A stretch of 64,000 nucleotides of DNA, taken from Amphibalanus amphitrite. Lineage: Eukaryota; Arthropoda; Thecostraca; Balanomorpha; Balanidae. The stretch lies in contig NW_024881710.1 in assembly GCF_019059575.1 (NCBI RefSeq), positions 493,001-557,000 on the forward strand, given 5' to 3'. Under the pieces are notes generated by a model. That model had not been told where the DNA came from. It made no database searches and worked only from the letters and a program-made list of their open reading frames with translations. The stretch's first letter is position 1; every line of letters starts with the position of its first letter. A program made the translations under genes and the position numbers. Below, piece by piece: positions 6,031-55,500 of this stretch.

Positions 6031-6774
6031 TTAAGTGTGGCATTTTGTTTCGAACATCGCTGTTCTAAAATAAAATTAACACTTTGGGGTAACCCTGGTT
6101 GAGTGGGCAAGCTTACCCCCAACCGAAAGCAATGCCACTAAACCGCTGTTTTCCATGAGATAATAGGTACTGAGTAGCCGCAGTGGCGTATCCAGGATCT
6201 TGAAAAGGGGGAGGCCAAACCTGCTCCAAGGGCCCCACCCTTACCTTAGGGGCCCCAGTAGTAGCGTACTTAACCCATGCCCAGGTGCGGTTCTTTGCCA
6301 CTTTCGCCATGTGAGGAAGCTTTTTGAGGCACACTCGGCAATCTAAAAAAAAAGAATGTTAAAACGTGAAAAAGCCTTCAGAAACAACGGTGTGGGTCGT
6401 GGGGCCATAGCAAACGGGTATGGGGCCCTTACAGCTGATCCCTCATTGGCCGGCAAGGGCCCTCAGAGGCCGGCAAGGTCCCTCAGAACCCGGCGTGGGG
6501 CCCTTTCTGGAGATAAGTGTGGCTACACAAGAGACCATGGGGTGTTCTCACAAGCCCTGTGGTGTCCTTTCCAGTTGAAGCGTGGCCAGCGCGGACCCTC
6601 TGCCGCCAATTGGCACCGCAGGGCCCCTCGGGCCCGAGGGGACCCTAAACCTTATAACGGACACGTGCCCCCTCGCCCCTGGCTATACCATTGAATCCAA
6701 GTGATCAGGGGCCTCTCTGATGACCAGGGGCGGATCCAAGGGGGGGGGGTCACATGGGTCATGGCCCCCCCCTT

Positions 6775-8195
6775 GAGGCCCGGGGCCCAAAGACCTGCCA
6801 GGGGCACCACCGGCCTATCAGGGGTATCACAGTCCTGACAGGGGCACCACAGGACCGCCAGGGGCACCACAGGCCTAGCAGGGACACCACGGGCCTGGTG
6901 CCCCTGGGCCCTGACAGGACTGTAACGCCCCTGACAAGCCTGAAGTGTCCCCGGTAGGCACGTGGTGCCCCTGACAGGCCTGAGGCGCCCCTGCAAGGGC
7001 GGTGGTGCCCCTGGCAGGCCTGTGGTGTCCATGGCAGGCCTGTGGTGCCCTTGCTAGGCCTCTGGTGCCCCTGACAGGCTTGTAATGCCCCTGGAAGGAC
7101 TGTGGTGCCCCTGGGCCCTGACAAGCCTGAGGTGCCCCTGACAGGCCAGTGGTGCCCTTGCTAGGCCTGTGGTGCCCCTGGCAGGCCTCTGGTGCCCCTG
7201 ACAGGCTTGCGGTGCCCTTGGAAGGACTGTGGTGTCCCTGGGCCCTGACAAGCCTGAGGTGCCCCTGACAGGCCCGTGGTGCCCTTGTTAGGCCTGTGGT
7301 GCCCCTGGCAGGCCTCTGGTGCCCTTGCTAGGCCGCTGGTGCCCCTGGCAGGCCTCTGGTGCCCTTGCTAGGCCGCTGGTACCCCTGCGCCCGGAGAGGA
7401 CTGGTGCCCCTGAAAAGTCTGAAGTGCCCCTCGGCAGGCCCGTGGTGCCCCTGACAGGCCCAAGGTGCCCCTGCGAGGCCGGTGGTGCCCCTGGCAGACC
7501 TCTGGTGCCCCTGGCAGGTCTGTGGTGCCCCTGGCAGGTCTGTGGCGCCCCTGGCAGACCTGTGTTGACTGGTGCCCCTGCTAGGTCGCTGGTGCCCCTC
7601 ACAGACCTGTGGTGCCCCTGGGCCTTGACAAGCCTGAGATGCCTGGCTATGACAGGCTCGTGGTGCCCCTGATAGACCAGTGGTGCCCTTGCTAGGCCTG
7701 TAGTGCCCCTGGCAGGCCTCTGGTGCCCCTGCTACCCCTGCGCCCGGAGAGGACTATGGTGCCCCTGAAAAGCCTGAAGTGCCTCTCGACAGGCTGAGGC
7801 CCGTGGTGCCCCTGGCCCCTGACGGGCCCAAGTTACCGCTGCGAGGTCGGTGGTGCTCCTGGCAGACCTCTGGTGCCCCTTGCAGGTCTGTGGTGCCCCT
7901 GGCAGGCCTGTGTTGACTGGTGCCCCTGCTAGGCCGCTGGTGCCCCTCACAGGCCTGCGGTGCCCCTGGAAGGACTGTGGTGCCCCTGCCCCTAGGGGTG
8001 CTCATGGGCCCAACAGGTCCGTTGTGCCCCTGACAGGCCTGTCGTGTATACTTGCTAGACCTTTGGTGCCCCTACTTCCTGGCAGGCCTGTGGTGCCCCT
8101 GGCGGGCCTGTGGCGCCCCTACAAGGCCGTAGGTGCCCCTGAAAGGTTTGTGGTGTCCCTGGAAGGACTTTGGTGCCCCTGACAAGCCTGAAGTG
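6775..8195. repeat. Minisatellite, unit about 20-27 bp (TGGTGCCCCTGACAGGCCTG)
   Basis: Variants of TGGTGCCCCTGACAGGCCTG follow one another for about 1.4 kb. The unit length varies, and higher-order blocks (e.g. around 7300-7640 and 7700-8000) are repeated. Open frames read across it only because the unit lacks stops. Confidence 0.95.
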
Positions 8196-19869: not shown

Positions 19870-22800
19870 CTGTAAACACGACAAAGAAATAGGCAGATGT
19901 TTAAAACAAGCGTGGACTGTCTTTCAAACTATTAACAACATTCAGCAAAGAAGGTCTCATCCATTTAATTTTACGCACATGATGAAATAAATGTTCACTG
20001 GAACAAAAGAGTGCCAGCGAGACGAGCTTTGAGTTCAAGTATTGCAACCAGCTTTTTCCCGCTAATCTGAGATTTTGTAACCGACTTAAGTTCTTCCTTT
20101 TGATGTCACGGGAAAAGTAATGATTTGAAATACTCACCACTTCAAATCTGTCCTCATGGGCGTAATAGTCGTATACTCGGAGAACGGCCGGCTTCAGCTT
20201 TTCGACCTCGAGAGCGCGGATGAAGCGCACGTCGAAGCAGACCTCCTTATCAGTGAACTCTTCAAAGTAGAGGCTGGCCTTGCCTTCGTTGAATTCCCAG
20301 CGCTCAATAACTGTCGGGAAAACGTTTTGTTACTATATATGCAACATTGATTCATGACACACGTTTTAGTATTGCGTTATTGATGCTCGGAAATTAGCGC
20401 ATTCGCTGCCGTCATATACTACTCTACTCGTAGCTACTAGCTACCATATAACTACTAGGCATCGGTTACAAACCAACACTGACGTACTATCAGTAAGTAT
20501 GTAGACAATATAAATAGTGCAACAATTGAACTCGTGTGGCAGCAGTTTCTCCCAAACTTTTAGTTACTAAGTATTCAATTAGGAGCGGAAAAGTGTTAGC
20601 AAAAAGGAACAAACACTATAGTTTTACTCTCAATAGTCAGGCTCTCACCCTTGTCATTTTCCAGTTTTCTCAGACTGCTGTCAATGGTGACGAATCCAGA
20701 GAGCATCTCGATTTCGACAATGGCCATGTTGCTCTCTGTGTTGGGCTCCTTGAAGCTGGTGCAGATGTTGAGCGTGAACGAGCAGGAACTCTTCACCTTG
20801 GTGATGACGGCCTTCAGGTTAAACTTGGGGTCGGGGAAGGCCACCTTGGTGTTATAGCGGAACACCGACTGGACGACGGCGCAGCCCAGTCCATTGACCG
20901 AGAACGTCACCTTCTTAGGCAGCGCGAGCGGCTGCGGCAGCCAGTCCTGGCGTGTCAGCAGCCGGTTTTCGGCCGTGATCTGCACGCTGTACCGGTAGCT
21001 GGGCGAGGCCGTGACCAGTACGTCGACGGCCGTGCTCTCCGAGTAGGTGGCGATAGCGAACTCGGTGAGTGCCGTCAGCGCTACCACCGTGTCCTGGGTG
21101 GACACGAAGCCGCCCTGGCTGTTGCGCTGGGCGCTGATCCACTTCACGGCCAGCGCGGCCTCGCCCAGGTTCGACGAGCCGCCCAGTTTGAGCAGCGTCA
21201 TCGCCATGTACGATGTCATCTCGATGTCCACCGCGCGGCTGCCGCCGTACTTGCTGGTGCGGTCTCCCTTCCAGTACAGCTGTCCGCCGCGGCGAGTGCC
21301 CTTGGTCAGGAGCGTCTGCACCCGACTGCTGCCTTCGGACGTCTTCCCGGCCATCACCAGCGCGTGCGCCACCAGGATCTCGGCGTACAGGGTGCTGTAT
21401 GTGCTGGAGGCCAGCAGGAAGTCCACGGCCTTTTTGGCGGCCGCCGGCTGGTCATTGGCCTCCAGCAGCGTCAGCAGCACGTAGGCCGTCATCGCCTCCA
21501 CGGCGCCGTTACCCACGCCGCCGCGCATCTCCTTGTGGAAGAGGTTGCCGTAACTTTTGAACGCGCCGTTGCTCTCCTGTAGCTTGACAATCCAGGATGT
21601 GCTGATGGAGACGTCGTTTTTGTCGATGGCGATGTACTTGCTGGCGGCCATGTAGGAACGAACCACGTAGGCCGTCAGCCACAGGGAGCCCTTGTAGCGC
21701 GGCGGCGAGCGCTCCGGGAACGCCGAGTAGGAGCCCTCGCGGCGCCGGTAGCGCAGCTGACGCTGGTACCCTGCAGTCACAGACAGACAGGGAGACGGCC
21801 ACCGTCAGCACCTAACGTCCCGTCGGACTTCGATCTGAGTACCTAATGCGTTTAAAATCCCCTAGTAATTTTTTCAGGCGTTACGAAACAGATGCATACA
21901 GAATCAGATATTACTGTTAAAATGCGTTCGTAGGTTTCAGCTACAATTTTAGCACACGCTGGAACACAGATTAACAAATCATCAAAAAATGGTGACACAC
22001 GCGTGCGAGACATGTCACTGACCTGTCCGCATGTTGGCCGTGGTGCGGTCCTTCAGGCTGTCCGTCAGCAGCTTCACCTCTTCCAGGTAGCGGCGCACCA
22101 GGATGTTGGGCACGAAACCGATCATGTTCTGTTCGCCGCAGCCGGTGGGCACTCGCACCAGACGCTCCAGGTTCTGCCAATGACGGCACACGTCAGCACA
22201 GGCGGGGAAAACAATGGTACCTCCCTGTATTCAGTATTCACTGAAATGAACGCACCAAGGTAAAGACGGTCATAAGCGAATGCTTTTGAAGTTTCAAGAA
22301 ATAGCAATAAAAAAATGTTGGTAAAGCACTCACAGCTAAAGCCTTTGTTTTCTTTTGATCATTCTTTGTTTTGTTGTAAAAATGTAGCATTATTTTTTTA
22401 GGGGAAAGAAGGAGCACTTATTCCTTTCCGGTGTCATTCAACCATGGAAGGCTGAGCTGAGCGACTCCTCACCTCTGCAGAAGGAGCTATCAGGTCGCCC
22501 ACGATGTTGACCCATGCGCGCTGAGAGTCGGGTACCAATTGGTTGGGTAGGGCCAGCTCGAACGTCTCCTCCTTTGGCGGAGACGTGCTGTCCTCCTTAC
22601 AGATAAAGGCAGTGTTGACCTCCTCCTGTGGGAATCCCTCCGGCTTGACGATAAGGCTGCGTACGAGTGCATCACTGAAACACACCCGGGCCAATAGTCA
22701 GTCAGGCCAACGGCTGCGGTTGCCGCGCATTCCAGGCCTCAACTGTCTCGTCCGCCATTTTAGTCCCAGTGGCCGCATAACGATGAGTCATGCGAGGTAA

Positions 22801-25800
22801 GTACATACGTTTCACCTACCTGGCCTGGACCTGGTTGGAAGAGCCACAGGCTGAGCCACTCGTCCTGGCCGATACGGTGATGTTAACCTTGCCGAGAGTG
22901 CTGAATTCGAGCGGGAACTCCACCACTGAGGGCTTGGAGGCGCGAACGCAAACGGTTTGGCTGCCGCTTCCCCCCGACGCCACACTAAAGTCTGTCGACG
23001 AAGCCAGCACCACCGCCACCTGGCAATACGCGAGACAGGGAGGTCAGACACAACATGTTCATAACATCCTGCGATCAACCACAAGGGGCCACAGTATCCT
23101 ACTACCATCTACAACAAGTCCCAGCGACATCGTGCGGTCAGACAGGGTCTTAGCGTCAGCGATGTTCCGTCAGTGACAGCGCGTCACAGCAGCATTCTGC
23201 AGCCAGTATATCTGCGGACATATTGTCATCCACCAGGCTGATCCAGGAACTTACCGACAGGTCTGAGCTCAGGAAGTTGAAGACGGAGACTTTGAGACGC
23301 AGCAGCTCGCCGCGTTTCACCGAGTACGGTACTTGGATCTGAGCGAAGAACGGCTTGAATGTGACGATAGTTGCCGTATCAGACAGGCCAAAGCCGCTCT
23401 GTGGCAGACAAAAAGAGAAACGCACATGCTACATATATATGTTACAGGCAAAGTGAAAACTCGGGCATTTTGCAAAATGCCTAGGCAATTTGCAAAATGC
23501 CTGACCGGCCAGGCATTTTGCAAAATGCCCAGGCAGTTTGCAAACTGCCTGACCTACCAGGCATTTTACAAACTGCCTGAAATATTTTTCCAGGCATTTT
23601 GCAAAATGCCTGACATCAAACTCGCACTAGCGACGATGTATAGGTAAGCATCATTTGTAACTGCCGCTTACAAAAGTTAATCGCTGTCAATGCGCACCAA
23701 GTGAGGGGACACTGCGTTCTCCGGGTAGCGCCGCCGAGTTCAGGTCACTGAGCCCCAGCGTCCGTCGGGTGCCGAGCACCGGGCGTGGTTTCGTGGATAA
23801 ACACGCGCTCGGTACAATGATTGTACTGTTTCTAGGAGCTCTTGGTGGCTTTTTGAAAATACTATGGGTGAATATTGATCAGACAAGAATACTCCTCCAA
23901 TTTACGAAAATGTGATTGTTACGCGTTTAGGTAGGTACATTATCAATCGTCTCTGCCGGAACAGCTGCCCACCGGGGCAGAATACTGGACATCGCAGCTT
24001 TTATACACACGGCTACAACTCCGTATATAGGTACGAAAGGTACGGAGACGGTGGCTCAAGTCCATTCAGCGTTGGCTCCATCTCGACAGAATTGACGCAA
24101 GACGTAGGTATACAGAATGTCACGAACTTGATACGCGGTTGGCGCGGTCTTGTCCCTCCATGCCCCTCCTGAGTGCTGAATGGATGTAATTTGAACGGAT
24201 CCGGCACCAGGGCATCTGGACCAGGGCACTCGGCACCTAAATCGGCCATCCCTCGGTATCTGAAGATTTTACCCTGAAGCTGAAGCCGCTCAACCCCAGG
24301 CTGCAACCCTGACTTACCGTCATCCATAAGTGATGCAGCTGGATTTAGACAAAACCCACCAAATCTGGACCATTCAGGACTAGAGATTCAGACTTTTCAA
24401 TGATGAGTCCGTGAGGCAATATTAGCCGTTTTCACGACGGCCATCTGGTACACATTTGGTTCACATCTGGTGCAGATTAGGTGCATATTTGGTCAAATTA
24501 GGTTCAGTGTGTCTCTTAGTAGCCATCAGCTAGGGTTGTACTAATTGCTTATATGCCTCCTTTGTCATATTATCAGAGAGCATCATCGGTTAAAACACTG
24601 AAATAAATTCATAAAATAAAGATATTTGCTGTAAAAGAGATTATGTGCAGATTTGGTCAAATTAGGTGCACTCGCCGGATAGCCCGTCGTGAAAACGGCT
24701 ATTAGAGCTCTTCTTAGTCACGAACCGTCCCGACAAGCAGTTCTGGGTCAACAGCAGCTCAGAGGCGCTGCACCGCCGAGACGGTGAAGCACCCACTGGG
24801 GACTGGGGATTCTCGTTTGAGGCATGATGGTCTACAGAGGCCTATTTGAGCTTCACCAGGTGACGCGGGGACAGACCACGTGGCCGCTGATAACTTGTCA
24901 GCGAGGTGCTGGAGAACACTGACGCAACTACGATGCAATACATTTCGGGACACAAGTACAACATCCCGCAACAATTTCGTGACACCCTGTATTCGTGACC
25001 GTGGAATGTGTCACATGTGCCCACAAAACATGTGAAATGTGTTGTGGGGTCAGTCACAGTGGAACGTTTATGATCAACGCCTGTAGTCAACAAAAGCGGT
25101 GGAATATATGGAAACCCAGGCATTTTGCAAAATGCCTGGCGGGTCAGGCATTTTGTAAAATGCCTAGGCAGTTTGCAAAATGCCTGGTGGGTCAGGCAGT
25201 TTGCAAACTGCCTGGGCATTTTGCAAAATGCCTGGCGTGTCAGGCATTTTGCAAATTGCCTAGGCATTTTGCAAAATGCCCGAGTTTTCACTTTGCCTGT
25301 AACATATAGACGATATAGACACGTACTTCACTCTCGAGTCGAATCTCGGATTTCGATCCTCCAAAGTCAGATTTGTGAAACATCACTCGGCAGTAAGTTT
25401 GAATGACCACAATTCACACATTCCGAGTCTCTCATACCGACCAGGTGGCCACTGCACTCACACGAAGTCCGCTGCAGAAGGCCGACGCCACCCAGCTGGT
25501 AATGGTGTCCGGCATGGTGGTGCTGATATCCTTACGGCCCGAGCCCCTGTGCACAGCCGGGGCTTCAGTACTCAGCCGAGCGGCAGGAGGGCATCCAACA
25601 GACGGCGACAGAATAACACAGAAGAGGAGACAGAGACGGAAGAACACGGATGGAAGAGATACACAGACGGAAGGAATCGTTGGGAGGGATGCAGCGACGG
25701 AAGGACGCGGATAGAAGTTCAGCGTCTTGACAAAGGAAGAGACGGGGATATTAGGACAGGGAGGGAGGGAGTCACAAATGCAACGAGAGATACGAGTAGT

Positions 25801-28800
25801 GAGACACATGAACGAAGTGATTACGCACCTAATCGATCTAATTCATAAAAAACATATACAACATGTAATTGTTATGGGCATGAATTAAAGCGACCAAATT
25901 CGCAATACAAATCAAAACGCTGTAACATTTAACGCATGCTTCTGGAACTCTACAAGTCATTTCTTTCGTGCACAAATTAATTTACCCTTGACCTAGCTAG
26001 TGGCTAAGTAAGGGCAGGTTCCAGTAGCTACAGATAACTCGACACTACATATATAGCAAATTACCTGCTGGTTACCAACAAGCGGCTATATTCACTTCAG
26101 CGCCACAGGAAACACATACGACGGGCCAATATTATAACCGTAAAGAGTTGAGACTTCTCACTGCTGGAGACGGGACGCGACACCACACGAAACTTCAGCA
26201 CCTCAGTCGAAGAGCACAGCGCAGCTCTGGTGGAGAAAAATATGGAGAATATCCAAACCCAGCAAACAAAACAATCCATTCACTTGAAGAAACAGCGCAG
26301 GCCCGATATGGTGTGAAGGCAGACAGTCGAAAATATCTCCGATTATGTACACTGTACAGTGTACAGTGTTCTGTTGCCGCAACGAACGAAAGCTTCAGTA
26401 AACTTGCAGAGTCGCAGACGTTCTTGTGAAATGTCTTGGTACGAGATATTTCTTGGTACGAGATAATATGGAGAAGGACCACACGAATCCCCCCAGCAAG
26501 TAGCAACTACTTAGTTATACACACCACCATGCATGGCCTTGCACAGCACTCGTAAATATAAATATTGTCAGAGAGAAGACACATCCAATCAACGCTTGAT
26601 ACCGTTTCCGCAGCGCATACATGCTATAAAGTGACGGTTGCCAACCAGTGATGAAACTTACCCAAGGCTCTGTACCTCGAACAGAAATGTTTTCGGAAAA
26701 AGTGAGCGCGCCTCTGTGCGCGTCCGTCCGGCGGGGCGGGGTGCCGGCCCAGACGGCGCCACAGTGCTCGGCGTCGGCACTGGCGGCGCGGGCGAGGTGA
26801 GGGCGTCGTCGTCGTCGGCGTCGAGCGCCCGGCCCGAGCGCCGTGCCATGACCGGCCGCAGGAAGCGGCGCACGCGACGCCGGTAGACGCGCGGCCACCG
26901 GCGGGACAGCCGGTCCCTCTCGCAAGGTCTGCTCTCCAGCACCAGGTTTGAAAGTGGCAGAAGTCCTGCCAGCTGGCGGCAAAACAGCCCACTGCAGTGC
27001 CACTACCAACTGCCATGGAAGCGTCCTCAAGTACGAAACGTGGGTGGCTCAAATCGGCCCGCAGGTCGAAGTGAAGCTGATAATATAAGCTTCGAATAAT
27101 TTGTTTGAAGTAAAATATTCCAAAATGTATAAATTTTGATCAGAGATAAAAGGAGCGAATTGCAGAATTTTTGAAGGATTGGTACCTATTATTCGTTCAC
27201 CCTCGATGCGAAATAAATAAGGTACATTACATAATCTTTGTAATCAATTGCATGTATGTAATTGACCTATATCACGGGCAGGTGTTAGTTTGCAAACTAT
27301 CCCGAACCACGGAAACGTTTTTTGACTTATTTCTTGCGTTCCCTCAAGTACCTACAGCTTCAGATAGAGCGAAACAGGAAAAAAGCTCAGAACATCAATG
27401 CACGTAAAATGATGTACTAATTTACTACTTTGAAATGATAAAAAAACCGTAAGCCAAAGTTCAAAAAAAATATTACGAATACATATGACATAAAAGGCCT
27501 ATTTGAGTCGTCTGAGAGAGAGGAACACAAATACACCTTTCTTTGAAGCCTCATCTTTATACGTATGCGCCCTGATAATTTGGATGCAATCGATGGAAAT
27601 TTGCATTTATAGCGAGAAACGTACTTTGTTATTGTATTGCTTTGAAAAGGTGCCAGTTTTATTGACCTGGTGACCTGACCTGATGGCTAAAAAGACTAAA
27701 ACTAGACAAAAGACATTTTCAGGAAAACAGGGTGTAAAACATTATCCGGGTCTCTATTTTTAGCCATATCTGTTCGCACAGCTTCTTTTCTGATGTTATC
27801 CCGCGCCGTGCTGATGGCCTGAACTTTCCGCCGAGCGCTGGAGGGGAGGGGCGTTTCCACGCCCCCGTCTAACTCGGTTCTTGGGCCACGTATGGACACG
27901 CGGTAAGCGGCAATCGAAAGAGCGTCAAAAATAAGGAAGAATACACATCGGTAATTTTTAAGTAAAAGGTCAGGTCACCAGAGGTCATCGAAGGACAAAG
28001 GTAGTCCACGGCTAACTTGACAACCAACAGAGCTACAGCGCCGCGGTAAAGTGCATTCGATAGCCCTTTTACAGATCTTTCTGTGTAATGTCCTCAGATT
28101 TGACCTCAGGTCAACAGTTTAGCCTCCAGAGGGCAAAAACTGTAAAAATAGCCGTTTTTACGAAAAATGTTTTTTCGGCAATAACGTTTAACTCAAGAGA
28201 GCCACTACATTACTTTTGGCAGCTCATTGTGTTCCTCTCATCGAGACGCGTCGAATGAACTGACCTTAAAAGGTAATTTTGAAAATTTGACCATAGGTCA
28301 AGGTCATGACCTGACCGAAAGGGTCATGCTGCATATCAGTCGATCCGTATCGTCGAGCTGAACACATCTGACGGTTTTCACCGCTCTAGCCCGTCACTAT
28401 CAAAAGTTATAGCAAAAAAAAGAAAAACTGCTGGTGACCGTTCATGACCTGAGATGACCTCAGAGGCACACAGAAGAGTCACAGGTGCATTTTTCCGATT
28501 CAGTGTGTCATGTTTACGTATGAACCGATGTTCGAGAGCGTTTTGAACGACATTCGTCCAAAAGAGGCGCATTTCAATTTTCTCGCATTGACATGGAGAC
28601 ATGACATAGCAATGGAGAGGTCGCAAAATTGACCTGGCCTTAGGTCACATATATAAAAAAATAAAAAAAAAAATAAAAAAGATATACATTTTATACATAC
28701 TGTTACTCATATCAATCGCTGAAAGTTTTAAAGTGATTGTTCAGTCGGTGTAGCTAGGGCGAGCCTTTAAACTTTCTCTGAGGTAAGGTCACTTGACGTG

Positions 28801-31800
28801 ACCTGGTGACCTGACCTTGAACGACCTGGGCCTAAAATGTTCACAACATGTGCGGAAATGATATATGAACAGGTGTACCAAAAACGGTGGCGCTGCACAC
28901 TGTCGTTTTTTGAGATATTCGCGAAAGACCTGGGGGGGGGGGGGTGTAACCCCCCCCCCCCAGCACGGCGTGGATTAAAAGCGGCAATATTGGATGAATG
29001 CGTACCTTTGCATGCTCTCAACTCAGCAGTGACCTGACCTTGCGAAGTGACTCTTGCTCAGAGTAAGAGTTGAGTCACCGATGGGTTCATTTGATAGTTT
29101 TCGTCTAAGACGTGGAGAAAAAGGAGTACAGTCTCTCCTTTCGTAGTAGACGTGCAAGTTGATGACTTGGCGGCATGAGGCTGAAGCTGGTCTGCCATGG
29201 ACATCAGCAGCAGCCATGGCTGCGAGTATGTAGTAGCACTCCTATCAGCAATGACCAACCATTTCCAAAACAAATAGATCTTCAGTTCGAACAGCCAACT
29301 ATATAGAGCCTACAGCATGGATGTAGTATATGCAGCTACGAGTACAGTAGAAGCGAGCTACGTAGTCAAAAACGTCAGCTCTGGAAAGAGATGAAAATTT
29401 ACCAACTGTAAGCATCAACAAACAACGGCAGCAGCTGAATATCAACCGCCTCAAACAAATTGGCTGCAATGGTAGAGCCACCACCTGTCACCAATACCAG
29501 CCCCTGGCCACGGCCGCCGGCCGCGCCAACAGTATGGTACCATATCTCTCTGCAGTCTGCATGGGCACATGGGTTTGCTGCAGAGTGCAACTGTCCCCTG
29601 AGCAAAGTCCTATCTCACAGGTCGTCCTCAGTCGAAAATAGTGGCCCGGACCACAGGACGGGTTCTGCTGTCGCTGCCAGTACCACATCCTTTGTCTACT
29701 TCGACAAACGCCACCAGCTTCACCATGGCGAGTATTCGCTATTACAGCAGGCCCCACCTCAATTAGGACTGTTGGCCCCGGCAGGAGATCAGCTGCAGAC
29801 CGTCCAACTCACCCGAGTTTCTCCAGCTGAAACAGGAACGTCGGCGGGAAGAGGGAGCGCACGGCCGTCTCCGCGGCCGGCTCCGGGGCCGCCGAGTCTG
29901 CCGAAACAGTTGAACTGCCCCCTCTCTGTGCAGTTTCTGTGACCTCAAAAACAGCATCACCTGCTGATGTTTTCGCTAATGCGGGGCGAGACCCAGAACT
30001 AGAGGTGAAGCCTCCAAGTACAGTCGTCTTCCCGTAGTATATTGGTGAAGACCGATTCCTTTTCTCGCAGGGTCGCGACTCCAGCACAAAGTTCGAGAAT
30101 ACAAGGTAGCCAGCCACCTGTCGGTAAAAGGACCGTTCCAGTACCTAGATACAAATCAAGTCGTTACAGACTATATACCTTCCTTCAGTCTCAGTCTCAT
30201 GTGATCCCCAGTCAGGTGACCAGATCACAGCAATCGTCACGCTTTCCGTTCAACCGTTTAACCGGTCTATAGTCCGTTTTCTGCACGCTGCCGTTTTTGA
30301 TATTTTTGAGAAACCTGAGGGGAGAGGGATGTGAAAACGCCTCCCCCCAGCACGGCGCGGGTTAATCTATGGCCTAAATGGACACTAAAACATGTGTCAC
30401 CGTGACCGATGAATGATATAGGATGTCCGTGACCTGGGACGACCTGGCCCTGACCTGAAAATCGAACTACAACTTTGGTACCCTCAGGGCACCTTAAGCA
30501 TCTATTCACGAAAGTGTAAACCAAAAATGAGCTTGATATGAATTTAAAGCCGGCGGCCAGAGCCCAAAGTGTGAACAAGTCCAACATCGATAATTTTTAC
30601 TTTGACCTGACCTGTGACGTCATCGGTGACCTTGAGGTCAATGAAATTAGGTTTCGCCCTACAGTTTTTCCGGGGCTATCAGACGACGTTTGACTTTCGA
30701 CGATCGACCCAGTATGTTTCGGAGTTAGGAGGGGGGCTATCAATAGCCCCCCCCCCCCAGTAGGGCGCGTTATATACGCAGACCCCAGTTGAGTGCGGAT
30801 TAACCCTCGCCGGACCTATTGGCTTTCTACATACGCGCCGGCCGAGGGGGGGGGCGGGTACGACCCCCCTCGCCGTTTCGCCCCTGGTGGAGCTAGCGCG
30901 TCGCGGAAAAACGAGCGTGTGCGCCGTTACGAGACGCAGAGATTGGTACCCGATTTTAAGGTCCTAGGTCAACCGGTGACCTCTGAGGTCAGGTCAAGTG
31001 CCCCAGGGTACGGTTCAGTTTTTGGTGAATAACTTCGCAAAAAATGGTCGCAAAGCCGCGATTTTGACAGCATCGTATTCGCCTCGCTCAGGCGCGTCGA
31101 ATGATATACTTTTTGTCCGGGTCAGGTCAACTTGGGGTGTTGACCTCAGGTCAAGGTCAGGTCAGCACCCCCAGGTCACGAAGTTGGTCGAAAGAGGTCA
31201 TGTCGCATATAATTCGATTCGGCAGGTCTTCTTGAGTCCATTGGTGACTTTCTCGACTCGCTAGCTCAATTTGATCAAGAGTTATTGACGAAAAACTAAT
31301 ATGACCTTGATGACGTCATAAATGACGTCACGCAAGGTCAACATTGCAAAAGTGACGCATCTAACCTTGCAAGGAGTGCATCAAATCACGATTCTGTTTG
31401 CTTGAGATAGTTGGAGATCGTTCCCGGCGCCAGAATAGCAGTTTTCATTTTTCCCCATTTTATGATGGTGAGGTCACGAAAATGACCTGACCTCATATGA
31501 CCTTTAGGAAAAATCCGAGATATACAAGTTGTGAGACTCATAATGGATACTAGATCCTGCAAGTTTCATTTCCCTGTGACATCTCCTCTGGCAGTGAGGG
31601 CGTTGCAAATTTGCGACATCTGAAGACCGTGCAGAGGTTCACTTATGACGTCATAGGTCAGTGACCTGACCTGACCAAAAAATGCGGTTGGTGTCAAAAG
31701 ATGCGGCTTGGATCAAAGGTCAGGTATGCCAAGTTTCAACTCTCTATCGCCAGCGTGTTCAGAGCTATCGCGAAAAACCCCTATGGGGGGGCGGCACCCG

Positions 31801-34800
31801 CGCCCCCCCCCCCCTCGGCCGGCGAGGGTTAAGTAAGCTTTTCGACATAAGCATATGAATTAAAGCGATGTGGAGGTATCCACCATATGAAACGATATTC
31901 AAGATGACTATTAGACAGCGGCTTAAAATCGATAGTACTGCACTGCCTGTTGCCTGCAGTGTGGAAGTCTAGCTCCGGAACTTGGAACCGATCAGCAGGC
32001 TTTCAACCGTGCCAGTCTCATCTCAACCAGCAACTGCTGCCTCGTCATCGATCACCCCAACAACATTGGCACCAATAGCAGCCTCAGGCACCGACACCAG
32101 TTCCAGGCTGGATCCTTCGCAAACAAACCCACATCTCCTCTTCTGCCGTGTCATCTGCAAGTCAAAATAAAGTACCATCCCGATCTATAGATTCCGCCGT
32201 CCCTACCGGGTCCAACGTCTGATCACCAGCTTCTCCATGGTGACTGTCCGCCCTTACATACAGCAGGCTGTTCCAACAGCGAGAGTCTGCGCTGTCGGTT
32301 GTTAGGACTGTCGGCCCCGGATCAGCTGCAGACCGCCCAACTCACCCGAGTTTCTCCAGCTGAAACAGGAACGTCGGCGGGAAGAGGGAGCGCACGGCCG
32401 TCTCTGCGGCCGGCTCCGGGGCCGCCGAGTCTGCCGAAACAGTTGAACTGTCTGCTTTCTGTGCAATTTCTGCGAACCCACTCACAGCACCATCTGCTGA
32501 TGCTACCGCGAAGCGACGCGCACCAACAATGGCGGCGCTCCCTGCAGTCTCAGTCCCCAGTGGGTAGTAGACAGGCGAAGACCGGTTGTTTCTCTCGCAG
32601 GGTCGCGACTCCAGCACAAAGTTCGAGAACACAAGGTAGCCAGCCACCTGTCGGTAAAAGGACCGTTCCAGTATCTAGATACAAATCAAGTCGTTACAGA
32701 CTGTATACCTTCCTTCAGTTTCAGTCTCAGTGATCCCCAGTCAGGTGACCAGATCACAACAATCGTCACGCTTTCCGTTCAACCGTTTAACCGGTCTATC
32801 GTCCGTTTTCTGCACGCTGCCGTTTTTGATATGCCTATTCGCGAGAAACCTGAGGGGAAGAGGGGTGTGAAAAGTGAAAACGCCTCCCCCTCCCCCCTCA
32901 GCACAGCGCGGGTTAATCTATGGCCTAAAAGGACACTAAAACATGTGTCACCGTGACCGATGAATGATAGGTATAGGATGTCCGTAACCTGGCACGACCT
33001 GGCCCTGACCTGAAAATCAAAGTACAAGTTTGGTACCCTCAGGGCACCTTAAGCATCTATTCACGAAAGTGTAAACCAAAGCTTGATATGAATTGTAAGC
33101 CGGCGGCCAGAGCCCAAAGTGTGAACATGAGCCCAACATCGATAATTTTTACTTTGACCTGACCTGTGACGTCATCGGCGACCTTGAGGTCAATGAAATT
33201 AGGTTTCGCCCTAATGTTTTTCCGGGGCTATCAGACGCCGTTTGACTTTGGACGATCGGCCCAGTAGTTTGGGAGTTAGAAGGGGGCTATGAATAGCCCC
33301 CCCCCCCAGTAGGGCGCGTTATATGCAGACCCCAGTGGAGTGCGGGTTAAGTAAGCTTTTCGACATAAGCATATGAATTAAAGCGATGTGCAGGTATCCA
33401 CCATATGAAACGATCTTCAAGATGACTATTAGACAGCGGCTTAAAACCGATAGTACTGCACTGCCTATTGCCTGCAGTGTGGAAGTCTAGCTCCGGAACT
33501 GGGAACCGATCAGCAGGCTTTCAACCGTGCCAGTCTCATCTCAACCAGCAGCAGCTGCCTCGTCATCGATCACCCCAACAACATTGGCACCAATAGCAGA
33601 CTCAGGCACCGACACCAGTTCCAGGCTGGATCCTTCGCAAACAAACCCACATCTCCTCTCCTGCCGTGTCATCTGCAAGTCAAAATAAAGTACCATCCCG
33701 ATCTATAGATTCCGCCGTCACTACCGGGTCCAAGGTCTGATCACCAGCCTCTCCATGGTGACTGTCCGCCCTTACATACAGCAGGCTGTTCCAACAGCGA
33801 GAGTCTGCGCTGTCGGTTGTTAGGACTGTCGGCCCCGGATCAGCTGCAGACCGCCCAACTCACCCGAGTTTCTCCAGCTGAAACAGGAACGTCGGCGGGA
33901 AGAGAGAGCGCACGGCCGTCTCCGCGACCGGCTCCACGGCCGTCTCCGCGGCCGGCTCCGGGGCCGCCGAGTCTTCCGCAGTAGTTGCGATGGAGCCTTG
34001 TGCCGCAGTGGACACAGGCACAAGAGACGCTGCGGCACCTCCCTCCATCGCAAACGCCACATTGCCAGTTCTGAACGTTCTCCGCGGGTAATAGACAGGC
34101 GAAGACCGGTTGTTTCTCTCGCAGGGTCGCGACTCCAGCACAAAGTTTGAGAACACAAGGTAGCCAGCCACCTGTCGGTAAAAGGATCGTCCTAAAATAA
34201 TGCTCTACCATTTATGTGAGCTCTCTGGACCAAAGCGTCACGAATTCTGAACTAATTGATTTGAATAAATGGCAAACCAGGTGATTCTGGACAGGAAGCT
34301 TTAACCCTCGCCCGTAAACGGCGATCTGCCACCTTCGCCCATGCAGGGGGGGGGGGGTTGGTGCGACCCCCCCCTTGGCGTTTGAAAACGGAGCGTCGTA
34401 GAGCTTAGCGGAAAAGACCAACGGATTGCTCTCGCCGAGATCTCGCGATTGGTGGTATATTTTTTGGTCCTAGGTCAACATTTGACCTACTTTTGACCGG
34501 TCAAAGGTCAAATTTTCGGAAAAATAGACTTTTTCAAATTTTCCGCGGCGATTGCGGCAAAACGGTGGGAGATATCGACTTGAAACCTTCACTATCGTGT
34601 TCCTTGATCAATTCTCTATCGTTTGGTATGTATTTCGTTTCCCTAGCTCTAAAAATGGCGCGTTGGGAGCGCCGGAAGTCGGCAAGGTCACAGTCGGCGG
34701 CAGAAATTCGAAAAATCAAAATTTAAATTTTTGAAATCTGATTGTATTTTTGGATTTGGGATGTCCATTTGCTCCCTATAGAAGCTAATATTGCTGCATA

Positions 34801-37800: not shown

Positions 37801-40800
37801 TGCGCATGCGTGGTGCAAAATTTTGCAGTAGGATGCGCTGCCCGAACAGGGCTCCGATGTCATCAAAGGTCAATTACCTGACCCGACCTTCAGGTGACCT
37901 TGGCACCCACCTTAATGCATGGGACCAACATCATATCACATGTTTGAACACATGAAACCACGAAAAGACCGCAAACGCGCGGCTAATGCGAGCCGACATA
38001 CGCCGAATCACGATTCCGGCTAAACATGGTCTCAAGAAACTGGTTGGTCAAAGATCATTTGGGTCAGGGTCATGAAATTTTCAGGGAAGATGCAAAGTTG
38101 AAAATCTCTAGGGTCCTTAGAGTTTCGCATTCGCGGAGCATTCGTGAAAAAAAAAAACGAGGGAGTCCGTTCGAACCTCCCATACGGGCGAGGGTTAACC
38201 CGGCACCGCATCTGGGCTATTTCCGTACCCACGGCAGCCTGGGTAGGGGGAGGGGTCGGATCCGACCCCCCCCCTGCTATCTGAGAACCAATGGCCGTAT
38301 CGAACCCCGCGAGGTGGCGTTCGAAAGGCATTTACGAGACCTTCCTAAAGCACTCAAGATTTTAAGACTGAGGTCAACTTTCGGGTCGAGGTCAGGTCAA
38401 ATGTAAGATTATGGGATTTCTGCACGATGAGGCTTACGCATAGGCGTAGGAACAGGGGGGGCCAGGTGGGCAAGTGCCCACCCACTTTTCGAGGTGGGGG
38501 GGCCAACCATGTGTTTTGGCCCACCCACTTTTTACTCGAGGCCCCTCGTCTCGATTTGAGAGGACGTCGTCACCTTCAAGAATAAACAGACTCGGTAAAA
38601 ATAAGTTCCACGAATCCCCACGCACGGACTCCAAGGGGGCCGTGATGGATCCAAGGAGGCCCTCTGTTCATACTTGTCAGTCGAAGCCCCTGAGACTGAT
38701 GGCCTGAGAGGCCCTAGTGGATCTGAGGAGGCCCCAATATCCACACTGGTCTGGGGAGGCCCCTGACACTGGCGGTCTTGGAGGCCCCTCTATCCACACT
38801 AGTCAGAGGTCTGAGACTGGGAGGCCCCTCCATCCACACTAGTCAGAAAAGGCCCCTGACACTGGTGGTCTAGCCGAGGCCCCCTACCCTCACTAGTCAG
38901 AGGAGGCCCCTCTATCCTCAATAGCCAGAAGAGGCCCCTGAGACTGATGGTATGGGAGGCCTATCCATCTACACTGTAGTCAGAGGAGGCCCCTGAGACT
39001 GATGACCTGAGAGGCCCTTATAATCACACCAGGCAGAAGAGGCCCATGAGACTGATGGACTGAGAGGCCCCTCTATTGATACTGGCCACAGGAGACCCCC
39101 AAAACTTTCGGTCTGGGAGGTCCCTCAATCCGGCACCAGTCAGGAGAGTCCCCTGAGACTGATGGCCTGGGAAGCCCTTATATTCACACTAGGCAGAGGA
39201 GGCCCCTGAGACTGATAGTATGAGAGGCCCTCATATTCACACCAGTCAGAAGAGGCCCCAGAAGTTGATGGCTGTGAGGCCCTTCTGTTCATATAACTGG
39301 CCACTGGAGGCCCCTGAAACCGGTGGTCTGGGAGGGCCCTCTATCCACACTAGTCAGAACTCAGAAGAGGCCCCTGAGACCGATGGTCGGAGAGGCTCTT
39401 ATATTCATACTGGCCACAAGAGGCCCCTGAGACTGATAGTCAGAGAGGTCCACTCCTAATGAATCTGAGGGGGCCCTCTATCCACATTTACACTTTTCTA
39501 GGGAGGCTCCCGAGACTGATGGTCTGAGAGGCCCTTTTATTTATACTGTCCACAGGAGCCCCCTGAGATTAATGGTCTGAGAGGCTCTTCTATTTACACT
39601 AACCAGAGGAGGCCCCTAGGACTGATGGTCTAACAGGCCCTTCTATTTATACTAGCCAGAGGAGGCCCATGAGACTGATGGTCTGAGAGGCCCTTCTATT
39701 CAAACTAGGCAGATGAGGCCCCTGAGAATGATAGTCCGAAGAGCCATGCGGCGGCAACTGGACGTGGCCATATTTCGGCTCGGTAGGGCCCCACAGAGCT
39801 CATGAGAGCACCTCAAGGGCTCCTAAGTAGACACGCTTATCCCCATAAGGGTGCCACGCCGGCTTATGAAGGCTCCTTGTAGGCATCTAAGGGCCCTTTC
39901 CGGCCTCTAACGGCTCCACCCGCCTGTGATGGCTCCACACCAGTGTTTATGAGCGCCACACAGCGGCGCCTTTGAGGGTCATACTAGTGTCTCTTAGGGC
40001 CCTATATCGGTGGCTCTGGAGGCCCCACACCGGCGCCTCTGTGGGCCACCACACCTGTGCATCTCAAGGCTCTATAGGTACATCTGAAGGACCCACACCG
40101 ACACCTCTGAGGGCCCCACACCAGTATCTCGGAGCTCTGAAGGCCCCACACCGGTGACTCAGAGGACTCACCGGCTCCTGAGAGCACCATGTTGATGTCT
40201 AACAGCTCCACAAGGCCACTGAAGGTACCACACAAGCTCTCACTGAGCTCTTATGTCCATGTACCGGCCTCTGAGGGATTTAATTAAGCCAGCGCATTCA
40301 TAGCTCCACACCAGCAATTGTAAGGGCTTCACACTGAAGTATCTGAGGGTTCCACACCGGTGTCTCTAAGGGACACATACCGGCATCTCTTAGGGCCCCA
40401 TACCGGCGTCTCCGAGGGTCCACATCTGGCGGGCACCCATCAGCGACTGAAGGTCCCACACTGTCGACTCCGAGAGCCCCATCTGCGTCTGGGAGCACCA
40501 TGCCGTCTCTAAGAACCACAGCGGCTCCTCCGTACGAAAGATGGGCGTCTTCATGCCAAAGGGGAGCGGTTCTGAGACGTATGGCACCTACGTGCAATAG
40601 AGGGGCGCCTAAGAAGCCCATAGGGGCGCCTCAATACGAAAGAGGGGCGCCTCTGAGGCCTACATATATGGGCGTCCACACGCAATAGAGGTCTGCAAAT
40701 TGCAATTGATCAATGCCATGGCGGGTGCATTCATAAGAAACAGGGGCGCCGGCATGGCAAAGAGAGGCGCCTTCAAGTGTCCATAAAAGAGAGACGCCTA

Positions 40801-42873
40801 TGATAAGCGCACATTGTATGCGACAACGGGGTGACTGTGGGACATATAGGGATGTCTCTGATGACTACCTATACATAGGGCGCTTATATGCCAAAGAGGG
40901 CGCTTATGAAGCTAATGGGGGCACATGGGTAACGAGGAAGACATTTGTGTAAGGGTTTTCAGCCTTTCAGGGGTCATGCGCCGTTTGCGGCAAATAGATT
41001 CTAAAAAAAAAAATCGGAGGGGGAATAAGCTTTAAAAATGGTGCGGACTTTCCGCACTGTTCGCTTAAGCGGTTACGCCCCTGGGTACATCTGCTCGATC
41101 TCAGAAGCTATATTTGGAGGTCATACCTACTTGAAAGCAGCCAGCAGGACGAGGCAAAAGTTGGAGGCCCCTGAAAATAGGAGGCCCCCTGGAAAAGGAG
41201 GCCCCTTGACAGGGTGGCCCACCCACTTTTCATGACGTTCCTACGCCCGTGGGCTTACGGACAGTGGAATCGATAGCTCCTGCTCGAAGCTCACAAAAAT
41301 GACCTCAAAGACTTAAAGCATATGGTTGCATCCATGACGTCTGCAAACTCTGAATACGATTTCCGTTCCTAAGTAGGCATTTAACCCGCGCCCTGCTGGG
41401 GGGGGGGGTGTTTGAACACCCCCCCCTTGTGGTTTTTCGCGAATATCTAAAAAACGGCGGCGCGGAGCGCCGCCGTTTTTGGTACACCTTATCATACATC
41501 AATTCTACACATGTTGTGAAAATTTCAGACCAAGGTCATTCAAGGTCAGGTCACCAGGTCACTTGAAGTGACCTCACCTCATAAAAACTTTCAATGTTTG
41601 TCATAGCTACACCGAGTGACTGATCGCTTTGAAACTTTCAGCGATTGCTAAGAGAAATAGCATGTACAAAATTTATATCTCAGAATTTTGCTATCTATGA
41701 CCTAAGGTCAGGTCAATTTTGCGACCTCCCCATTATAAGTCAATGGGAGAAAATTGAAATGCGCCTCTTTTGGACGAAAGACATTATAAACACTCCCAAA
41801 CACCGAATTACAAGTGGTTTAGACACACTGAACATGAAAATGGTGTCCGTGACCCTTGTTTATGCCCTGAGGTCATCTTAGGTCACGAATGGTATCTAAC
41901 AGTTTTTTCGCAAATAACTTTTGATAGAGGCATGCTAGAGCGATGAAAACGCCTTAGATGTGTTCAGCTCGCCGATACGGATCGACTGATATGCAACATG
42001 ACCCTTTCCGGTCAGGTCATGACCTTGACCTGAGGTCAAATTTTCAAGTTGACCTTTCAAGGTCAAGTTATAGTTCATTCGATGCGTCTTGACGAGAGGA
42101 ACACGATGCCGGTAAAAGTAAGCTCGTACAAGGCTTGGGTCAAAAGTTATTGCAGAAAAACTGTTTTCGAAAAAATCGGCTATTTTTGCAGTTTTTGCCC
42201 CCTGCAGGCAAAACCGTTGACGTTAGGTCAAATCTGAGAGAATTACTCAGAAAGGGCGTTAATAGGGCTATCGAATGCGCTTTTCCGCAGCGCTGTAGCT
42301 CTATTGGTTCCCGAGTTATGCGTTGGCTTCTTGGAAATTTTCGACATTCGACCTAGAAATCGGCGAAATTTTGCCTTCAATGACCTCTGGTGACCTGACC
42401 TTTGACCTGACCAAAAAATTGACCGAAGTGATTTCGTCATTATTTTTGACGCTCTTTCGAACGCCGCCTTCTGCGTATCGCTACGTGGCCCAGGAGCCGA
42501 GTTACAAGGGGGGTGTTCAAACACCCCCCCCCAGCAGGGCGTGGAAATCCAGGACCCCCAGCCGGGCGCGGGTTAAAAGGCGGAAGGTTTCTCTGACTGC
42601 ACCGACCTAGTTAAGCTACGTGACAATAAACTCAGATTAACTAAAAAAATCATTTGTTCTTTGGTCAACATATTTTAGCCTTATTTACCTACTTCAGTTT
42701 CGAAAGCCTTCAGTTTCTTCGTTCACTATTGCTCTAACCAAAAACACGCTCAATTCTTACATTTACCGGGACCTTAAAAATTATGTGCTACTGTAATGAA
42801 ATGAACAAGAAGGACGGAGCAAAAGCGAGAGAGATACAAGTTATGTACGCAGCAAGGGAGAAGTGAGAAAGAT

Positions 42874-42957
<84 letters not shown>

Positions 42958-42994
42958 AGAAGAGAGAGAGAGAGGGAGAGAGAGCGAGAGCGAG

Positions 42995-43082
<88 letters not shown>

Positions 43083-43480
43083 TACCTCGAAGGCCTTGAT
43101 GGAGTCATCTTGCCGTGTTCTGTACCAGTAACCGTCGGGGGTTGGTCGTGGTATTGGCCGTATGCGTCTAGCATTACGGCTGTTTGAGGGGGGCACTCTG
43201 GAACAGGTAATTGAGCATTGTGCCTTAATCAGAATTGCACTGTTTATCACGCACATATAACATAATGAGCCGTGCAACAGAGGTGAAGATAGAAAGATAG
43301 ATCGTCGCATAGATCGTCACGAACCTATGAAGTGGTCTATGGACATTTGATATCTATGGCTATCTCCAAAGCGCCGTAATCTATGAAAGGCGATCGACTT
43401 GAGTCACTGCAGTGCACAATGCACATGTATCGAGTTGTCCGCTTACAATACATGTGTATTGTGTAACGTGTATACACATT

Positions 43481-52500: not shown

Positions 52501-55500
52501 AGTCTGCGTTCGATATTCTGCCTTTCCGATATTTTGCGTTCGATATTTTGTCTGTTCGATATTTTGCGTTCGATATTTTGTCTTTTCGATATTTTGCGTT
52601 CGATATTTTGTCTTTTCGATATTCTGCGTTCCATATTTTGCCTTCTCGATATTTTGTCTTTCGATATTTTGTCTTTTCGATATTTTGCGTTCGATTTTTT
52701 GTCTTTTCGATATTCTGCGTTCGATATTTTGCCTTTTCGATATTTTGTCTTTCGATATTTTGTCTTTCGATGTTTTGTCTTTCGATATTTTGTCTTTCAA
52801 TATTTTGTCTTTCGATATTTCACGTTTCGATATTTTGCTTTCGATATTATGCTATTCAATATTTTGCGAGTTCGATATTTTGCAATTCGATATTATGCAA
52901 TTCGATATTTTGCGATGTCAATATTTTGCAATGTCGATATTTTGCGGTTCGATATTTTGCGATTTCGTTATTTTGCGCATTCGATATTTTGCTTTCGATA
53001 TTCTGCCACTTCGATAATTTGTCTTCAATATTTTGCTATTCGATATTTTGCTTTCCGATATTTTGTCCGGAACCCCTCTATGCTCCCGTACTTGGTTTTG
53101 GAAGCAGTTAGCGACGCTGTACGTCTTTGAATCGGCGATTGTTTCACCCAGGCCGTTGACGTAGTAGACGAGCACTTTGAAAGAAGGCGACACTCTGAAA
53201 TTCAGCTTGATTTCGATGGATCCGTCGCGTGCCACCTTACCAGAGGTATGAATCTGACCTCGGGTCATGACCTGCGCGGCGGAGGAAATGGTCAGTTAGG
53301 CGGCATTATCAGATATTTATTGGAATATGGGATGACCTAACTGAAAATGAACATGCTACACAAAACACGACGAGAGTGACATAACGTACCCGATGACGGT
53401 CTAGGATGGTTAGCGTACGATTACTGATCATGTAAACAGATTGCACTATCAGCGCGTAGCAGGTACGTACATATCCTGGGCCCAATCTTACCAAATGCCG
53501 TGAATGCGCATTCACGGCATTTGGTAACATTCAGAACTATTCCACATTAACTTATCCATTCGTTTAGGCAACATTCATGATCATTAACGCTATCAAAATC
53601 ATTGGACAAGATAAGCTGGGTGTAAATAAAAAGGATATATTTGATATCAGTGCCTAAACTCCGGCCAGTGCTGCCAAATCCTATTTACGGCATTGGTAAG
53701 ATTGGGCCCTGGTTAATCCGTGGTTACTTACACTTAATGCCGTACCCAAACAGGTAACCAAAGTCCAAACACCAGTAGGTACGGTTTTATGCAAGGCGTG
53801 CAGCCTATAGGTTTCGTCAATTCAATCACAGAAACAGAGTAAGCTTGAAGACACAAAAAGACAAAACGCAAGGAGCTAAGGGCACTTGGAGTCACTTACC
53901 AAATACGTCATTTGCGGCACTTTGATGTTCGACTTAACGGTGAGTCGGAGGCTACCCTCACACTTCAGACCGTATGGGTCCCTCACGGGCACGATCGAAA
54001 TGTACGAGTCGGTCAGAGAGAACCATCCCTTGAGCGACACGTAGTCGCTCCCGGACAGGCCGGACCGACGAGTCCGCACCTGCAGAATGGAACAGTCGTT
54101 AATGTCTCATCCGAGGCTGCATACATTCGGACGGCTCATTGTCAAAATCATGTCTTTAATTACTGAAGACATGCTTTTGGACTCGAGATTCCGTGCGCAC
54201 GTTTGCCCGGGCGCTCATGTTTGAGCGCACGGGTCATCCGATGTGAAATAGTGGCCCGCTGTGACTGGAAGCGGGCCACCACAGCCGGTCTGAGCGGTCC
54301 CACAGCCGGTCTGAGCGGGGTCCCACAGCCGGTCTGAGCAGGGTCCCACAACGGGTCTACTCGGGCCCACAGCCGGTCTGATTGGGGTCCCACATCCGGT
54401 CTGAGCGGACCCACAGCCGGTCTGAGCGGACCCACAGCCGGTATGAGCGGGGTCCCACAGCCGGTCTGAGCGGACCCACAGCCGGTCTACTCGGGCCCAC
54501 AGCCGGTCTGAGCGGACCCACAGCCGGTCTACTCGGGCCCACAGCCGGTGCGGGCCCCATCCGGTCTGAGCGGGGTCCCACAGCCGGTCTGAGTGGGGTC
54601 CCACAGCCGGTCTGAGTAAGGTCCCACAGCCGGTCTGAGCGGGGTCCCACAGCCGGTCTGAGTGGGGTCCCACAGCCGGTCTACTCACATTGACGTTGCT
54701 GGAGATGATACCGGCAGACTGGGGCGCAATGCGGAACCGAATGCGACCGTCCTTGTTGCTCTTGTACTCATTGCATGATTCTTGGTCTGTCTTGGATGGT
54801 ATTGCAGGATAAATGATTGGAAGCTTGTTGAAGTCCTTGTTCACCAGCTTGACTCCTCTGCTGGCTGTCTGGTAACTGTTTTTCACAAATATTCATTTTT
54901 GTTAATGTGTTTGCACTGGATTTAGCAAGACATACAAAGATTATGATGAAAAAATGTTCTACCAAATACGACAAAAAACATTATACGGCATGAATTATAT
55001 CCTCAAAGCCAAAGATATCTTCGACGCTGGCAGCTAATTCCATACTTACTGAACACTTGAAAAGTTTCAGACCAGGTCATTTGTTCACTGTCAAAGTATA
55101 TTGACCAAACCGGAAACCAAATGGCATGCTGCTGCAAAATTTTAATGACAGTTCCATTGCCAAACCAGGTCATACAGTACTATATGCTGCGACTCGTGCT
55201 TTACTTTTTCGATATTTGATATTTCGTTCGGAACCCGTCGCAATAAATCCCACACACAAAAGCTGGATTACAACAACAACAGCGAAAAAGATATGAGCCA
55301 ATTTTACGATCACGGATGACTAGATTGGTTAAATGGGAACGGATGTCCTCACTTTCAATGCTACTTACGACGGGTATGCTATAAACGGATTTTCCGACTT
55401 TTTGATCGGCTTGATCGCTCCTTGGTCAATGAAGGACTCCGTGTGACAAACTTGCAGGGTCTCATCGGAGAGCGGGTCGCCATCCGCTCCCTTCACTGTG

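Follow-up and report, generated by a model that had tools for sequence, protein, structure and literature searches.

The barnacle Amphibalanus amphitrite carries, in the 64,000 nt of contig NW_024881710.1 analysed here (positions 493,001 to 557,000; hereafter the window, its contig being called C213), an A2M gene in which four alternative versions of the exon for the bait region lie in tandem. The best explanation as a whole, to which we assign a probability of about 0.8, is that duplication of the bait exon gave this A2M gene a set of mutually exclusive cassettes, with a history of crossing over. Which proteases an animal can trap depends on its A2M baits, and the bait-trap mechanism is established for this family. 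The gene lies on the minus strand, and its A2M_BRD, A2M, thioester and receptor domains follow one another in that order (Pfam, above the curated cut-off). A second copy of the locus, on contig C344, has three cassettes.

The four cassettes, c1 to c4, are situated between two constant exons (Table 1). All are flanked by AG and GT and are open in the frame considered. Every cassette starts with [VL]AGxLxxSNxVLESRPCE and has RSLFPxTFLF near its end, giving a conserved "shell" round a divergent bait "core", so a cassette is the bait region plus both of its anchors. As is asked of neighbouring exons in a mutually exclusive cluster they are alike, with lengths of 302–311 nt, phase 0 in, phase 2 out and common ends. 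Judged by these features the array is beyond chance, c1–c3 being clear duplicates and c4 having both ends in common with them. The c4 core contains 17 Lys+Arg per 71 residues against 5–7 in the c1–c3 type of cassette, and RVYRRRVRRFLRP is retained in both copies (window 26662–26972 and C344:208714–208404). By its motif it looks like a proprotein-convertase site; the RVRR would be a putative furin site, and a two-chain product might result. A motif scan for extra cassettes in the window, including the 9-kb first intron, gave these four only among the matches listed. Searching for the c2 and c4 proteins throughout the barnacle genome returned seven cassettes, four on C213 and three on C344, and otherwise weak matches: one at E 0.95 in one search and 128 at E 0.04–7.6 in another (among the best 150 of 294 candidates).

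Table 1. Features of the A2M gene in the window (positions are those of the window)
Feature	Position	Strand	Basis or remark
A2M_BRD (PF07703) coding segment, upstream of bait	53089..53295	-	Pfam
Upstream constant exon, ends GAG/gtaagg, phase 0	43086..43197	-	sequence and translation
Bait cassette c1, 308 nt	33864..34171	-	24-nt in-frame tandem repeat, not in C344 counterpart ka
Bait cassette c2, 302 nt	32346..32647	-	core matches C344 kb; downstream intron copies that of c1
Bait cassette c3, 305 nt	29813..30117	-	core without close C344 counterpart; flanks place c3 at the kb position
Bait cassette c4, 311 nt	26662..26972	-	core Arg-rich, containing RVYRRRVRRFLRP, and without detectable homology to c1–c3
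Downstream constant exon, gives one base to complete codon	25462..25546	-	sequence and translation
Stretch of next exon used in frame test, SGFGLSDTATIVTFKPFF...	23219..23398	-	acceptor ccacag; PF00207
Thioester segment ...VPTGCGEQNMIGFVPN...	22021..22176	-	46% to human A2M probe
Open frame, most of thioester domain and start of receptor domain	20599..21804	-	PF07678 8.7e-57
Receptor-binding domain segment	20105..20308	-	PF07677 7.5e-12

The original prediction, made from the letters of the window, held that four bait exons of 308, 302, 305 and 311 nt share their flanks, differ in the middle and are locked by frame into mutually exclusive use. All four are present on the minus strand where it had placed them, with conserved shells and divergent cores in each. 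The arithmetic of the lock was likewise confirmed: phase 0 is found both at the end of the upstream exon and at the start of every cassette, all cassette lengths are 3n+2, and the downstream exon contributes one base. Its claim that exactly one cassette keeps the frame was borne out when translation of all 16 subsets of cassettes was carried 180 nt into the next exon, a test that also covers triples and the full set. The four single inclusions are open (4/4), whereas the remaining subsets (none, six pairs, four triples and all four) reach an early stop in 12 of 12 cases; the four-cassette message sums to 3n+2 yet stops inside the second cassette. On this reading of the sequence one cassette per message would be the sole productive splicing. 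The same lock is found in the second copy, where all three cassettes are 3n+2 with matching splice sites, so that the seven cassettes found in the genome are uniformly 3n+2 and GT-AG. Frame-locked alternative bait exons thus stand as the best reading of the locus.

The lock identifies the productive transcripts; that the spliceosome makes no others does not follow from it. It is also one fact rather than four: since the cassettes descend from a single ancestral phase 0/phase 2 exon, and have kept its phases through changes of length, the lock does not amount to four independent coincidences. Nor is it new in itself, such locks being common, since 377 (60%) of the human mutually exclusive exon clusters have exons not divisible by three (PMC5740500). 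As proof of coding an open frame is weak, because 11–23% of base-shuffled c1, c2, c3, ka and kb cores are open (11–61% across shuffled cores), and indel length is no better: 51 of the 111 gaps of at least 3 bases between the copies are multiples of three anyway, in a count that takes in exonic gaps and whose filtered segments hold a few matches between cassette duplicates which are not strict counterparts.

The second copy is collinear with C213 over approximately 77 kb of the stretch that was compared (5171 to 82523 in window numbering, which here runs on into the extended contig), interrupted by insertions and accompanied by many off-diagonal repeat matches. In filtered matched segments the two differ at 1086 of 23216 positions (4.7%). 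A probe from C213:700001, about 175 kb off, is found in order on C344:413443–415806 at 91% identity (among the best 40 of 1650 candidates); its remaining listed matches are either repeats no longer than about 170 bases or additional small pieces of C344. The counterpart of the upstream constant exon is at C344:229138–229024 and differs in length by 3 nt, in frame. The three C344 cassettes are ka (284 nt), kb (293 nt; its acceptor one base off that of c2) and kd (311 nt). C344 is probably the other haplotype, the assembly having kept both, and the cassette number differs between the copies (four versus three). The repertoire of baits would thus seem to be variable in itself.

By their cores ka corresponds to c1, kb to c2 and kd to c4. 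By their flanks ka is again c1 and kd is c4, but kb sits at the c3 position. The downstream introns of kb and c3 show 19 differences in 498, whereas those of kb and c2 are alignable over the first hundred-odd bases alone, and poorly (15/111). The intron downstream of c2 is instead of the c1 type: c1/c2 have 12 mismatches in 520 without gaps, c1/ka 20/519 and c2/ka 16/519. The near upstream intron is common to c2, c3 and kb (c2/kb 4/226, c3/kb 7/220, c2/c3 26/649). In the c1-type intron c1 is the odd one out at 8, c2 at 4 and ka at 12 of 519 positions, which is what three alleles would show; for the b-position core the counts are 33 for c3, 3 for c2 and 5 for kb among 139 sites.

Matched introns are thus about 2–5% apart, and cores differ far more between cassettes (c1/c2 dS 1.13, dN 0.51; c2/c3 dS 0.28, dN 0.36). 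The two b-position cores, c3 and kb, differ by a dS of about 0.27 and a dN of about 0.37, and their introns by 3–4%; change in this pair of cores exceeds that in the intron (45/162 versus 19/498, p=3e-16). This suggests that bait cores far outlast the sequence next to them, as they would under balancing selection, or that they came in by conversion. We picture an ancestral array of three positions (c1, b and c4). An unequal crossover within the common 3' shell, between haplotypes with a kb-type and a c3-type b core, would have brought the two alleles together in cis, where they are now c2 and c3; a single such event would yield the order c1, c2, c3, c4 with the introns seen. In keeping with it, c2 combines a kb-type core with a c1-type downstream intron. 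Two sites in the 3' shell are alike within a copy (ka and kb SAGPEPV; c2 and c3 SAAPEPA; c1 SAAPEPA and then a repeat that has the EPV form), which points, on thin evidence, to exchange among cassettes of one chromosome. A TTAA-bounded insert occupies 30800–31832 of the window, in the c2–c3 intron. As it is missing from the duplicated c1–c2 intron, it probably came after the duplication.

Selection was followed in codon alignments made with MAFFT, gapped codons being dropped first. In the pooled c1/ka and c2/kb cores 19 of 227 nonsynonymous and 3 of 88 synonymous sites differ between the copies (dN/dS about 2.6). This nonsynonymous change exceeds that of the adjacent introns (39/1017, p=0.005), the synonymous change of the thioester domain (12/285, p=0.038) and the nonsynonymous change of the shells (0/187, p=8e-6). 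The shells of the same two pairs are constrained, with 0/187 nonsynonymous against 3/71 synonymous differences, and the thioester domain is constrained in the usual way (dS 0.044, dN 0.008). The c4 core is constrained as well (nonsynonymous 3/124, synonymous 3/56; p=0.02 versus c1 and c2), while the c4/kd shells, which stand outside the pooled 0/187, have two nonsynonymous and two synonymous differences. The c1 and c2 cores would accordingly be diversifying, plausibly pushed by foreign proteases. The Arg-rich c4, which is conserved, may be meant for a more constant target or for a processing enzyme.

We infer splicing to one cassette per transcript and the crossover history from these data, and the working of the trap from what is known of the family. 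Each pre-mRNA would be spliced to one cassette, giving a subunit with one bait and a protease cleavage profile of its own. A wrong choice of cassettes would shift the frame and the message would presumably be destroyed, nonsense-mediated decay serving as a fail-safe. A cut in the bait would close the trap and activate the thioester. The inverted-repeat search gave repeat-like pairs, of which the longest, spanning c1–c3, includes a transposon-like insert missing from C344. This insert, of about 1.19 kb (window 41381–42576), is flanked by TTAA and has inverted ends TTAACCCGCGCCC; a 75% inverted relative lies at 28982–27796. We considered transposon inverted repeats as a splicing switch, since they could loop out c1–c3, and rejected them because the insert is absent from the matching C344 site. 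A long CT microsatellite (42862–43079) begins 6 bases past the donor of the upstream constant exon and could affect splicing.

Several points weigh against the array of mutually exclusive, diversifying cassettes. Exclusivity and expression are read from the DNA, and any cassette could be silent. The inverted-repeat search found no docking/selector pairing to enforce exclusivity, although short elements could escape it. The direct test of core dN/dS is no more than suggestive (p=0.09); the Fisher tests, which take Nei-Gojobori site counts for whole numbers and carry no correction for multiple testing, cover two cassette pairs in one genome; and c3, with no matching core on C344, is outside the between-copy counts. 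Lastly, it is from collinearity and from the finding of two copies that C344 is called a haplotype.

The last point bears on two other accounts of the copies. C213 and C344 might be paralogous regions created by segmental duplication, in which case the array would not be polymorphic. A divergence of 4.7% is high for alleles, and the distant probe matches at 91%; but collinearity extends through the locus to that probe, exactly two copies were found, and three other bait-domain matches likewise come as near-equal contig pairs (C81/C168, C1403/C258 and C196/C942), though several of the 22 bait-domain matches in the genome list are without an obvious pair. We regard paralogy as unlikely. Still harder to credit is an assembly artefact in which two haplotypes were joined in tandem and c2 or c3 is a false duplicate. 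The assembly does seem to separate haplotypes, and the relevant introns differ by no more than 2–4%, about the level between the copies. However, c2 differs in flank and core from c1 and from the C344 cassettes (c2/c1 intron 12/520; c2/ka intron 16/519; c2/kb core one synonymous and 11 nonsynonymous differences), so the artefact would need a third haplotype, i.e. pooled DNA, and the c2–c3 intron carries an insert of its own.

If a single cassette were expressed, it would probably be the divergent and conserved c4, and c1–c3 would be recent duplicates heading for decay. That the c1–c3 part differs in number between the copies, as decaying duplicates can, and that the c4 core is the most constrained both fit this idea. 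On the other hand every one of c1, c2, c3, ka and kb has an open frame, a length of 3n+2 and GT-AG sites (openness by itself counting for little, as noted above), and the shells of the c1/ka and c2/kb pairs are constrained while the cores change fast, a split that neutral decay would not produce; we consider it improbable. Similarly poor odds attach to the view that the cores diverged wholly after duplication, very strong positive selection being the driver and haplotypes exchanging nothing. Nonsynonymous change in the cores does exceed intron change between the copies, but the synonymous core sites have diverged far more than flanks of this age would allow (dS 0.27 in the c3/kb core against 3.8% in the intron). 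A recent duplication followed by positive selection alone was set aside, the synonymous sites of the cores being also far older than their flanks.

Bait exons that are used alternatively are already known, among them tandem sets of the mutually exclusive sort, and the barnacle array is a clear new example and not a novel type of system. The original prediction had named Drosophila Tep2 and tick A2M as precedents, rightly in both cases: Tep2 has five isoforms through its bait-region exon, though it is named a TEP and not an A2M (via PMC7016707), and the ticks Ornithodoros moubata and Ixodes ricinus (IrA2M-1) have several bait-region splice variants of a true A2M (PMC7962413). The snail Biomphalaria glabrata has 12 mutually exclusive tandem bait-region exons in BgTEP2 and three variants of BgA2M (PMC7016707). 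BgTEP2 belongs to the TEPs of insect type, and its cassettes are three times as numerous as those of the barnacle gene; the parts of that account drawn on here are silent on the frame lock, haplotype differences and core/shell evolution described for the barnacle (PMC7016707). In Fenneropenaeus chinensis FcA2M-2, like the barnacle gene an A2M, has six variants of the region that differ in their Vibrio responses, and Chlamys farreri CfTEP, again named a TEP rather than an A2M, has seven isoforms from six mutually exclusive exons and is immune-induced (both via PMC7016707). As in the A2M array, portions of one MHC class I molecule evolve differently, but there the variants are separate genes and not alternative exons (PMC1403747).

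The newer part is evolutionary, namely the cassette number (four versus three), the core/shell split and the second copy. In our searches of the open-licence literature we found no account of haplotypes differing in cassette number or of alleles turned into bait exons. Tentatively, and at rather less than even odds, we propose that the bait is a balanced, hyperdivergent polymorphism of about 150–180 nt set in ordinary flanks, and that unequal crossing-over through the shells fixes alleles as cis exons. The outcome would be an evolving individual repertoire in which c1–c3 change and the Arg-rich, possibly furin-cut c4 is fixed. If haplotypes do differ in the number or kind of their baits, this would be an invertebrate defence protein with an individually variable repertoire that can grow by the conversion of alleles into exons.

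With respect to the rest of the gene, PF07703, PF00207, PF07678 and PF07677 were matched from four of the seven pieces submitted, the other three being short pieces without a match; among the latter is the thioester segment 22021–22176, which by itself gave no Pfam match. Its thioester motif GCGEQ is intact (VPTGCGEQNMIGF at 22176–22021). The downstream readings ...GRKDISTTMPDTITSWVASAFCSGLR and SGFGLSDTATIVTFKPFF, the latter from the exon starting at 23398, align with human A2M (tblastn). Against solved structures the frame at 20599–21804 gave phmmer E values of 2.4e-55 for A2ML1, 1.4e-53 for A2M, 7.1e-50 for CD109, 8e-30 for TEP1 and 1.3e-25 for C3. By these scores, which do not set CD109 sharply apart, A2M and A2ML1 appear to be nearer to the gene than insect TEP or C3 are.

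Two long imperfect repeat arrays are present in the window, at 38638–39739 and 6655–8071, the latter reading as QGHxRP-type repeats in several frames. Elsewhere in the assembly, contigs C1156, C2179 and C2350 (L001–L005) have A2M_BRD matches in uninterrupted frames of 1527–1776 amino acids, two per contig in two cases. These contigs look bacterial, and perhaps derive from a symbiont or a contaminant.

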